Shown here: positions 15,381 to 18,780 of the stretch, piece by piece
How positions within the stretch are numbered: the first letter of the stretch is position 1
How the letters are laid out: every line of letters begins with the position of its first letter
NCBI GenBank assembly: GCA_030123565.1
Contig: CP126122.1
Span: forward strand, 4,540,800 to 4,604,799
From: Nitrospira sp.
GTDB lineage: Bacteria; Nitrospirota; Nitrospiria; Nitrospirales; Nitrospiraceae
DNA: 64,000 nucleotides
Reading direction: 5' to 3'
Made by a program: the position numbers and the translations under genes
The notes under the pieces: model-generated
Database searches by the model: none
What the model saw: only the letters and a program-made list of their open reading frames with translations
What the model was told of the DNA's origin: nothing

Positions 15381-16595
15381 ATGCCGTCATCCCGCGAACT
15401 CTCGCCTGCTGTGCTTGGAGCCCTGTCCGCCGTAAGCGGACTACGGCTCGGGACACCCTGCGAGGCGGTCCCTCAGCCGATTGCCGAAGCTGTAACCAGA
15501 CTCTCATCCATGTTCAACCGGGGCCGGGTGGCGGAGGGATTGCCGTACTTAGAAGAGCCATCACTGCGGGCGGCTTATCTCACCTATTTTTTTCCTGTGA
15601 ATTTGGTCAAGGGGCAGGTCCTCCTGGATGAAGCGGAGCCTGTGCTGGCCCTTCGAGCGGGAGAGCCCTTTCGCGTCCTGGATGTCGGTGGAGGCCCTGG
15701 CACTGGGGCACTGGCTCTGTTGGACTGGCTGTCCTCACGATCGAACGAGGATCGGCAGGCTGTGGAATGTACCGTGATCGACCATTCACCGAAGGCGCTA
15801 CGATTGTGCGAAGGACTGTGGCGGGAGTATCGATCCGAACGATCGGCAGCCGGGCCACGAAACCTGCATACCATCGTATGCGATCTGGAGAAGCGATTAC
15901 CCCGCGGACTGTTTGACGACCCCACACATCCGGCCTACGATCTGATCCTTGTTCAGAACGTTCTCTCAGAGTTGTACCTCAGGCAAGCGGAGACCATAGA
16001 GAAGAGGACGGCCCTGGTGGAGGCGTTGCTGCACCGTCTCTCGCCCCAAGGGACGCTCATCCTCATCGAGCCGGCGCTCCGTTCAGTCTCACGGGAGCTG
16101 CATCTAGTCCGGGATCGGTTGCTGCAACAGAGTAGTTGCACGGTCTATAGCCCCTGTTTGCATGAGCACCAGTGCCCGGCCCTGGTTAAACCGGACGATT
16201 GGTGCCATGAGGAGCGAGGCTGGATCAGGCCTGAATGGATCGAACAGGTTGATCGAACGGTGGGATTCATCAAAGATGCCCTGAAGTTCTCCTATCTGAT
16301 TCTTCGCAAAGACGGGAAGACGCTTGTGCCCCGCAGCTCGGATCTCCACCGTGTCGTGAGCGAACTACGTGTGATGAAGGGGGAGAAACGAGTCTGGTGG
16401 TGCGATGAGACAGGCAGACCGGAAGTCGGCCGGCTCGATCGGGAACGCTCACCGTCCAATGCAGTATTCGATGATTGGCACCGCGGCGCCATCGTGCGGG
16501 TCAGCGAGATCGTCCGCAAGGAACGGAAGGGCAGGCCGGGCACGGTCGGACGGATTCCCGCATCGGCGACAGCCGAAATAGTTCGACCTATCTAG
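15381..16595 (+). CDS. Rsm22-family SAM-dependent methyltransferase
   Basis: A 404-residue protein from ATG 15381; an earlier TTG at 15333 would overlap the divergent promoter. The SAM-binding fold begins at [20 protein letters not shown], followed by the VIDHSPKAL acidic strand end and DLILVQNVLSEL. CPALVKPDDWCHEERGW is the Rsm22 signature Cys-rich segment, with an upstream YSPCLHEHQCP. Eukaryotic members act on mitochondrial small-subunit ribosome assembly and bind an Fe-S cluster. A ribosomal target in bacteria is inference. A structured repeat follows the gene. Confidence 0.85.
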   Translation: MPSSRELSPAVLGALSAVSGLRLGTPCEAVPQPIAEAVTRLSSMFNRGRVAEGLPYLEEPSLRAAYLTYFFPVNLVKGQVLLDEAEPVLALRAGEPFRVLDVGGGPGTGALALLDWLSSRSNEDRQAVECTVIDHSPKALRLCEGLWREYRSERSAAGPRNLHTIVCDLEKRLPRGLFDDPTHPAYDLILVQNVLSELYLRQAETIEKRTALVEALLHRLSPQGTLILIEPALRSVSRELHLVRDRLLQQSSCTVYSPCLHEHQCPALVKPDDWCHEERGWIRPEWIEQVDRTVGFIKDALKFSYLILRKDGKTLVPRSSDLHRVVSELRVMKGEKRVWWCDETGRPEVGRLDRERSPSNAVFDDWHRGAIVRVSEIVRKERKGRPGTVGRIPASATAEIVRPI

Positions 16596-16608
16596 ATTAT
16601 GTCAAGAT

Positions 16609-16730
16609 GGGGGCAGCAACCGAACCGCCCTTCTTGCTCGCTGCCCGCGCACCAAGAAACAGTCGGATTCCCAAATTACGGGCGGTGCTCGGTCAATGCG
16701 CGCAGTGACCGGCAGTTCGGTCGCTGCCCC
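16609..16730. repeat. Structured intergenic repeat, copy B
   Basis: The outer arms 16610-16625 and 16715-16730 are complementary at 15 of 16 positions, the exception being able to form a G-U type pair. The core TGCTCGC (16635-16641), CGCGCAC, GTGCTCG and TGCGCGCA (16697-16704) matches copies A and C, with a longer inner loop. It begins 14 bases after the Rsm22-type gene. Confidence 0.8.
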
Positions 16731-17181
16731 AGAGGAGACCGAACGTATCGAATCGGCCCAGCCTAGCGCTAAACAACAAGTGTGTCGAAGACAAGACGCC
16801 AATAGGCCTGTCCTCGCCTCTGGCCTCGCCCCTTCTCGGATTAGCAGAACGGGGTTTCGGCACCGTAGGCTGCTGTCGATCGGCGGTGTCCGCGATACCG
16901 CGAGCCTCAGCGCGCATCTGTTTCACCTGGCATAAAGAGGAGGTGGTTAAACCGTGATTTGCCGCCTGGGCCAAAGTCGCTCGCCGCTGCGTCTTTCCTT
17001 GAGAGACAGTGGATCTAGGACCGGTCGATCACGGATCGGTCCTGCTGCTCGGACTAGAACACAGAACAGGCTATGCCGTGCTGTTGCTGCGGAAAGCGTT
17101 GACAAGTGATTGACCACGCGCAAGAATCGCCCCGAGTTTATAGTCTATGTTGGCGCACCATTCTGGTCGGGAAACTCACTT

Positions 17182-17188
17182 GTTGGGC
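17182..17188 (+). other. Possible integron recombination core (GTTRRRY)
   Basis: GTTGGGC lies 17 bases before the cassette gene ATG. It matches the GTTRRRY core where integrase cuts between G and TT. The motif is short and occurs by chance about once per kilobase; it gains weight only from its place opposite the attC-like site at 18078-18138. No matching RYYYAAC half-site was found upstream, so it would be an attI-like or degraded end. Confidence 0.35.
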
Positions 17189-17205
17189 TCCTATGGGATA
17201 GGGAC

Positions 17206-18063
17206 ATGAGCCACGATTCCCGAGAGAACCTGCTCAAGATGATCCGCGAGGCCTTCGCGGGTTCGAACAGTGAGTGGATGAGCCGCAAGCGGTTTCTTCA
17301 GGAGGCTGAGCTCAAGGACTCCGATCTCTTCCGCCACTTTGCCTCTTGGTCCGAGGCCGTGGCTGCAGCTGGCATCGACCAGCGTCCCTACAACCAGAAG
17401 ATTTCTATCGATGAGTTGTTTGAGGACTGGGGAAACCTTGTTCGGCGTGAGAGAGCCATCCCCACGAGAAATCGCTACAAGATCGATGGCGGCTTTTCAC
17501 CCGGCGTCTTTGAGTCGAACTTCGGTCCATGGTCCGAGATTCCCAGGCGATTTCGGGAATGGGCGCTAGAGAAGCGGGAATGGGCAGATGTCCTTGCCAT
17601 TCTTCCACCGGAAGCTCCGCACGAAGAGGCTGCCCCAACATCTGGCCGCCCAGCAGCGGCTAGCTTGCGGATGCGAGACCCTTTCAGCCGACATCGCAGG
17701 CTGAATGACCGACCCACTTACGGCGATCCGGTTGACTTCCGCGGCCTCCGGCATGCGCCGGTGAATGAGAATGGTGTCGTCTTTCTCTTCGGCATGGTTG
17801 CGAGAGAGCTTGGGTATTCAGTGGAGGCAATCCAGATAGGCTTTCCCGACTGTGAAGCCAAACGACAGCTTGCTCCCGGCAAGTGGCAGCGAGTTCGCAT
17901 TGAATTCGAGTTCGAGAGCCGCAACTTTGTTGAGCACGGCCACGACCCAAGTGGATGCGACGTCCTGGTGTGCTGGAATCACAACTGGGCCGACGCGCCG
18001 GACAGCCTTGAGATCGTTGAGCTTCGGAAGGTCATCAGCTCACTATCAAAGTCCGACGAATAG
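17206..18063 (+). CDS. Homing-endonuclease-associated-repeat protein with putative nuclease-like C-domain (cassette cargo)
   Basis: A 285-residue protein from ATG 17206; the frame stays open back to 17110 but that extension crosses the GTTGGGC boundary. The N-terminal 140 residues hold two or three repeats ending in F-x-S/P-W-x-E-A/I (LFRHFASWSEAVAAAGI, FESNFGPWSEI), as in DNA-binding repeats associated with homing endonucleases. The C-terminus has IGFPDCEAKRQL, VRIEFEFESRNFVEHGHD and CDVLVCWNHNW, a PD-(D/E)xK-like arrangement of acidic residues; nuclease activity is inference. An attC-like site follows the stop by 14 bases, so this is probably the cargo of an integron gene cassette. Confidence 0.7.
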   Translation: MSHDSRENLLKMIREAFAGSNSEWMSRKRFLQEAELKDSDLFRHFASWSEAVAAAGIDQRPYNQKISIDELFEDWGNLVRRERAIPTRNRYKIDGGFSPGVFESNFGPWSEIPRRFREWALEKREWADVLAILPPEAPHEEAAPTSGRPAAASLRMRDPFSRHRRLNDRPTYGDPVDFRGLRHAPVNENGVVFLFGMVARELGYSVEAIQIGFPDCEAKRQLAPGKWQRVRIEFEFESRNFVEHGHDPSGCDVLVCWNHNWADAPDSLEIVELRKVISSLSKSDE

Positions 18064-18077
18064 GTCATGACTCAGAA

Positions 18078-18138
18078 ACCTAACGATGACTAGCAGTGAA
18101 CGGTGCTTGCCCGCCGCTGCTGACCGGTGGTGTTAGGT
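18078..18138 (+). other. attC-like integron recombination site (59-base element)
   Basis: The site is 61 bases. R'' is ACCTAAC (18078-18084), fitting RYYYAAC; R' is GTTAGGT (18132-18138), fitting GTTRRRY; the two are exact reverse complements. Inside, TAGCAGTG (18091-18098) pairs with CGCTGCTG over eight positions including two G-U pairs, and a short CGG/CCG pair closes the tip. Unequal spacers between R and L boxes are as expected for attC. It starts 14 bases after the stop of the preceding gene. Confidence 0.65.
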
Positions 18139-18591
18139 GCTACGAATAGACGATAGTACTGCGGGCGAGACGTTTAGTTTCGAATAGGTGGACAGGCTGG
18201 TAGGGACACCTTGAACTCATCAGCCCACTCAGGCATTTCGAGACGCGCGTCTTGCGCATTGCAGGGCTGTATTCCTCGCGCAGGCGAAGGGGCTGTGAGC
18301 GATTCGTCACCGCCCACTCTTTTTTGTGCGGCGCTGGCCTGTTCTGCGTCGCGAATCGCAGAGGGGAGGGACCCGCACTTGCCGATCAGATGCGGTCCGC
18401 TCAGGCGGACGGCGAGGACTGTCCGAAGTTCCTTTCAGTCGAAGCCTGGGAGGAACAAGTTCCGCAGCCGAGCAGATGGAGGCTTAGGGCGGTCTGGCCG
18501 AAGTGTTGAGCAGGGCAGGGGCCCTCAGCGCGCTTATTCGGATCGAAAGGATGACTGATAGCTGAAGGCTGATTGCTGACTTCTTGAGAGT
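18139..18591. other. Intergenic stretch after the attC-like site
   Basis: About 450 bases without a supportable gene. Plus-strand frames at 18211-18558 and 18252-18509 have no ribosome site and low-complexity arginine/serine composition. The right end (about 18547-18583) is a CTGATAGCTGAAGGCTGATTGCTGA stutter repeat. No second attC-like site was found. Confidence 0.5.
18547..18583. repeat. CTGATAGCTGA-type stutter repeat, copy 1
   Basis: Three imperfect iterations of CTGATWGCTGA-like words. A related copy, with the same CTGATAGCTGAA word followed by CTGAT, lies at 61059-61104. Confidence 0.5.
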
Positions 18592-18780
18592 TCAGTCCGC
18601 TTCCGGCTCCGAACTTCCGTGCTGATGACTGACCCGATCTTCGTCAAACAACTCCGCCATTTCTTCGGCAATCATATCCCGATCATTCGGGACCGAGATC
18701 AGAGGAATTTCCTTCCGGGGCTTGGCCTCGGCAGTGGGCTGCTTGGGATCGTCAGGCTTGGGAGTCGGTGTGTCGCTCAT
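18592..18780 (-). CDS. Small acidic hypothetical protein, 62 residues
   Basis: It begins MSDTPTPKPDDPKQP at 18780. It has a Pro/Lys/Asp-rich disordered N-terminus and an acidic helix DRDMIAEEMAELFDEDR in the C-terminal half. No family is recognised. It lies 36 bases downstream of the zinc-ribbon gene on the same strand, so co-transcription is likely. The ribosome site is not strong. Confidence 0.55.
   Translation of the reverse strand: MSDTPTPKPDDPKQPTAEAKPRKEIPLISVPNDRDMIAEEMAELFDEDRVSHQHGSSEPEAD

Follow-up and report, generated by a model that had tools for sequence, protein, structure and literature searches.

Chromosomal integrons of the Treponema type carry an intI gene transcribed towards attI (PMC3607928), and archaeal integrons place attI downstream of intI, with a semi-conserved sequence and a canonical insertion point (PMC9668308). 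Clusters of attC sites without integron-integrases (CALINs) are thought to arise from intI loss or off-target insertion (PMC9024848, PMC8618304). The IntegronFinder 2.0 paper lists only two CALINs in Nitrospirota; this version dropped the default attI search because descriptions of attI beyond class 1 are poor, and it detects attI in that class only (PMC9024848).

The locus described here shares features with each of these systems. As in the Treponema type (PMC3607928), intI, attI and cassettes follow one another in that order on one strand in Nitrospiraceae relatives, with intI transcribed towards attI, whereas the locus itself holds no intI and one cassette, and its attI family has its own sequence together with a conserved promoter-like sequence. 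Like archaeal attI (PMC9668308), the site is recognised by a semi-conserved sequence and an insertion point just behind intI, but Nitrospiraceae attI belongs to another phylum, has another sequence and is mostly integrase-less. The absence of an integrase is shared with CALINs, which are however defined by attC (at least two in IntegronFinder 2.0); the diagnostic part here is attI, the only attC is poor, and with at most one candidate attC the locus falls short of the two-site definition. IntegronFinder-type software would probably not call it.

The window, meaning the whole 64,000-nucleotide stretch analysed, covers positions 4540800-4604799 of a 4.62 Mb single-contig genome. Its 2-oxoacid oxidoreductase and ATP-citrate-lyase-like open reading frames (ORFs), neighbours of the remnant, suggest a Nitrospira-like nitrite oxidiser. 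The stretch 17094-18138 is very probably the remnant of a chromosomal integron, consisting of an attI with promoter and one cassette, with intI gone; a remnant is favoured over an out-of-integron insertion because the left boundary is an attI. The features are as follows.

16590..18593, no strand: lineage-specific segment between two convergent genes, delimited by congener junctions
16611..16707, no strand: dispersed intergenic repeat left of attI, with copies elsewhere in its own genome and in congeners
17094..17188, + strand: Nitrospiraceae-type attI whose last bases are the crossover GTTGGGC; based on profile match and TTGACA-to-GTT distance
17099..17127, + strand: Pc-like promoter of presumed activity, TTGACA (17099-17104), 17 bp, AAGAAT (17122-17127)
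17182..17188, + strand: crossover heptamer GTTGGGC (G^TT), left cassette end, where conservation stops in 28 attI copies
17183..18132, + strand: putative gene cassette, 950 bp, G^TT at both ends
17206..18063, + strand: cargo gene, 285 aa, nuclease-like, two HNH repeats and a conserved C-terminal domain
18078..18138, + strand: putative attC, with R'' 18078-18084, L''-like 18091-18098, L'-like 18115-18122 and R' 18132-18138
18343..18519, no strand: another dispersed intergenic repeat, to the right beyond the attC-like site, with copies in its own genome and in congeners

The attI site at the left boundary

An attI profile was built from 27 copies in other genomes of the same family, none from the source genome. 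With nhmmer it matches 17094-17187 at 62.4 bits (E 1.6e-18), the next match in the window having an E of 9.2. When 28 copies are aligned, a conservation of about 0.9 persists as far as GTTAG and is down to background a few bases on; family-wide matches likewise usually end at that motif or immediately before it. Comparison of the insert with congeners at the DNA level found 17095-17128 to match two places elsewhere, one of them on contig 28 of G028, and in both, as in the window, TTGACA and GTT stand 83 bp apart. Among the copies examined, IntI sequence ends 58-73 bp upstream of attI in seven loci, G028 included. Judged from sequence, GTTGGGC at 17182-17188 is identified as the crossover of a genuine attI because of the profile match, the IntI-adjacent copies and the conservation boundary.

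In a promoter consensus scan, TTGACA-N17-AAGAAT scores 10/12 and is the sole match in 16500-18700. Both hexamers are conserved across the attI family, and this attI-borne sequence may act as the cassette promoter.

The cassette, its cargo and the right-hand attC-like site

The initial annotation had proposed a single-gene cassette ending in a 61-base attC. Its geometry was reproduced exactly: GTTGGGC precedes the ATG at 17206 by 17 bases, the attC-like site begins 14 bases past the stop codon at 18063, and an excised circle would comprise exactly 950 bases, from TT (17183) to G (18132), with one gene. One gene with a 17 bp leader between two G^TT junctions is the organisation by which a gene cassette is recognised.

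The homing (HNH) repeat noted earlier in the cargo protein was borne out, since PF18780 gives an E of 1.7e-5 here, just below the Pfam cut-off, and 3.9e-18 and 6.3e-15 in homologues, far over it. The C-terminal domain carries the motifs FPDC, RIEFE and CDxxVCW, which on a motif reading only resemble the PD-(D/E)xK arrangement; no PDB or Pfam match was found for this domain, and the predicted structures bearing on the question have pLDDT values of 53 and 40, too poor for fold comparison. The cargo is thus a putative nuclease. PADLOC and NCBIfam searches yielded nothing informative. The gene was not found in 28 congeners, no phage or viral relatives were found, plasmid relatives amounted to short, weak haloarchaeal matches, and no attC lies close to a homologue from Planctomycetota. 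In another Nitrospirota genome (locus L188), a full-length homologue is followed 5 bp behind its stop by a canonical attC of 26.1 bits; the cargo gene family therefore does travel as a cassette. The cassette interpretation is supported chiefly by this attC and by the attI, both new to the present analysis.

In relatives, integron contexts hold two more nuclease genes with HNH repeats, whose catalytic domains are different. Like the cargo, these Nitrospirota cassette proteins combine PF18780 with a nuclease-type domain, and they are either closed by attC (L188, L045) or have an attI-like neighbour (L195). Their C-termini differ, being MUG113/T5orf172 GIY-YIG-like in L045 and HNH in L195, while L188 has the FPDC domain of the cargo. 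Three different nuclease-type C-termini thus occur on HNH-repeat cassette proteins of Nitrospirota integrons (L188; L045, 13842-14582, minus strand; L195). At two further loci (L191, L192), an FPDC/RIEFE/CDxIVCW domain lacks HNH repeats and is fused to another C-terminal domain of unknown family.

The right-hand site begins and ends in R boxes, ACCTAAC (18078-18084) and GTTAGGT (18132-18138), which are exact complements (7/7 pairing) fitting RYYYAAC/GTTRRRY, just as had been reported. No other 7/7 pair of this kind with a length of 50-130 occurs in the window. Random sequence would yield 0.32 per 64 kb, so the pair alone lacks significance; when only the 100 start positions that follow a given stop codon are considered, the expectation is about 5e-4. 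The L boxes of the initial annotation, TAGCAGTG and CGCTGCTG, pair no better than chance, and its description of the locus is confirmed in part, for the geometry, the R boxes, the HNH repeat and the lack of intI. This inner stem contains two G-T wobbles with spacers of 6 and 9, and 35% of random inserts of 47 nt placed between these R boxes equal or beat it. Scored in canonical geometry it reaches 0 as given and 2.8 reversed, the latter attained by 35% of random inserts, and the score of 0 compares with 3-10.3 in 34 other Nitrospirota attCs. The reference attCs came from plasmid-borne class 1 integrons, an array in Gemmatirosa and integrons of Nitrospirota; in nearly all of them the spacers measure 5 and 6, and position 4 of the L'' arm holds an extrahelical base. 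The site has neither the L''/L' stem nor the canonical extrahelical base nor the 5/6-nt spacers that mark the interior of an attC.

The covariance-model check proposed earlier was run with a purpose-built attC model, trained on 23 of the collected attCs and able to find many outside the training set, and gave a mixed answer. The site scores 12.2 bits, with an E of 0.33 over 64 kb and of 0.012 over a 2.3 kb segment; the R boxes and the positions adjoining them supply the whole score, which is below that of every attC recovered; reference-locus attCs listed at E up to 1 score 14-55 bits. An Rfam search matched nothing. A repeat-family origin of the 61-bp site was rejected, as no further copy was found in the source genome. 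Taken alone, 18078-18138 would not qualify as an attC.

These figures leave a real, if low, probability that the attI remnant is genuine and the palindrome fortuitous, the true attC having been lost and only the left boundary preserved. The low score, an inner stem no better than random and the fact that no recovered attC has so poor an interior all favour a chance origin, but perfect R boxes so close behind the stop codon are expected only 5e-4 times, and the L188 homologue likewise has an attC just behind its gene. The same low score, chance-level stem, and missing 5/6 spacers and extrahelical base also count against the integron-remnant reading as a whole. Under that preferred reading, the attC half of the cassette is probable, and 18078-18138 is probably a divergent or decayed attC. 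Excision between two attC sites is blocked when both lack extrahelical bases, while their removal lowers attC x attI integration only about 6-fold (PMC2727003); such a site could therefore have integrated, yet would be hard to excise. Present mobility of the cassette is unlikely because attC x attC excision requires extrahelical bases (PMC2727003).

The attI family, integrase relics and the genomic junction

The attI element occurs in 71 of 175 family genomes (about 40%), with up to five copies per genome. Its IntI-side region shows graded truncation in other copies. On contig 28 of G028, attI lies directly behind an internally deleted IntI and is followed by ...ACTCAATAGTTAGCC and a gene, and in G262 a full-length IntI, attI and a 52.9-bit attC occur together; these are the only two of 32 cross-checked attI-positive genomes for which full-length intI is listed. 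Of 31 attI loci, eight are accompanied by attCs at E < 0.01, and in five of these eight no IntI was found within 1.5 kb upstream. An ORF begins within some tens of bp of most other attI copies, and integrase-less units of attI plus gene recur within the family. No description of this attI family was found in the literature searched, which is not proof of novelty. Across the phylum, a full-length integron integrase is present in 63 of 295 Nitrospirota genomes sampled, far above what the published phylum count implies.

Copy numbers of up to five per genome, most without an integrase nearby, could also be expected if the 94-bp element were a dispersed Nitrospiraceae promoter repeat and not an attI, with the gene merely using its promoter. 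This is improbable, as the element stops exactly at GTTRRRY with unrelated genes beyond, immediately follows the end of an IntI in seven loci and precedes attC-closed genes in eight.

As the initial annotation stated, the window contains no intI. TIGR02249 has no match over its cut-off in the whole genome, and the two proteins that score highest against the IntI profile, both recombinases of 319 aa, were rejected as IntI, being XerC/XerD-like. The genome-wide intI search recommended earlier recovered C-terminal relics only, at 1239731-1239924 and 3766630-3766740, neither within the insert; together with the lack of an intact gene, they support the earlier suggestion of a relic. The failure to detect any IntI remnant in 16400-18700 speaks against an integron remnant there. 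The relic at 1239731-1239924 (L005 1477-1700) is frameshifted and 79-87% identical to intact congener IntI; about 190 bp past it come TATAGTTAGC, which resembles the end of an attI, and a TIR-domain-like ORF (L005 ~1917-2699), and these three elements constitute a second integron remnant in the source genome. A canonical attC of 28.7 bits (L154) lies at 3771926-3772013, 5 kb from the relic at 3766630-3766740.

The 2.0 kb segment 16590-18593 is missing from all 28 congeners, in most of which the flanking genes nearly abut, several with about 13 bp between the homologous ends. The closest relative (G021) has 254 bp at the orthologous junction (2294465-2294718, L048), which showed no meaningful similarity to the insert on comparison; within these 254 bp, GCAGCGCGTTAGAC resembles the R' end of an attC. 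The two dispersed repeats that bracket the remnant (16611-16707 and 18343-18519) are unrelated to each other and have several copies each. In the related-genome comparison suggested earlier, the gene proved to be missing at this junction, and the absent stretch is 2.0 kb and not 950 bases; exact secondary-site insertion of 950 bp was accordingly rejected. Insertion of a lone cassette at a secondary genomic site by a trans-acting integrase, an option raised earlier and compatible with the window's lack of intI, its single gene and the relics elsewhere of a former integrase, is highly improbable and largely refuted by the attI homology, since the left edge is a 94-bp attI and not an arbitrary GTT and the segment absent from congeners is no clean 950 bp.

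Proposed history and significance

The earlier interpretation therefore stands in part, for the cassette and the relic and not for an out-of-integron insertion. In the integron-remnant reading, an ancestral intI would have lain just upstream, transcribed towards attI as in intact relatives, and its integrase would have inserted a circular cassette by recombination at the G^TT of attI, so that the cargo gene came under the attI promoter. The intI gene may then have been lost, or may never have arrived with the segment. The site at 18078-18138, if it is the cassette's own attC, would have diverged or decayed, keeping its R boxes and losing the L stem and extrahelical bases, and the cargo gene would now be a permanent resident transcribed from the attI promoter. 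The capture itself and this order of decay are inferred as the most likely course; the attI homology, the position of the element behind the IntI ends of relatives, its promoter-like stretch, the lack of any intact intI, the lineage-specific presence and the homologous gene in a canonical cassette elsewhere are observed.

A bolder and rather doubtful proposal is that solo attI "expression docks", integrase-less, with a built-in promoter and one captured gene each, are a standing feature of the family, possibly still open to an integrase that arrives from outside or works in trans. If true, such docks would escape attC- or intI-based surveys. Counts of integrons normally rely on the integrase or on attC clusters, and an attI search reveals remnants that both criteria miss, making the Nitrospiraceae attI family a means of seeing dead integrons. 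A captured gene can apparently outlast its dead integron by becoming fixed under the integron promoter, which would be one route by which accessory genes, nucleases for example, become residents of the genome.
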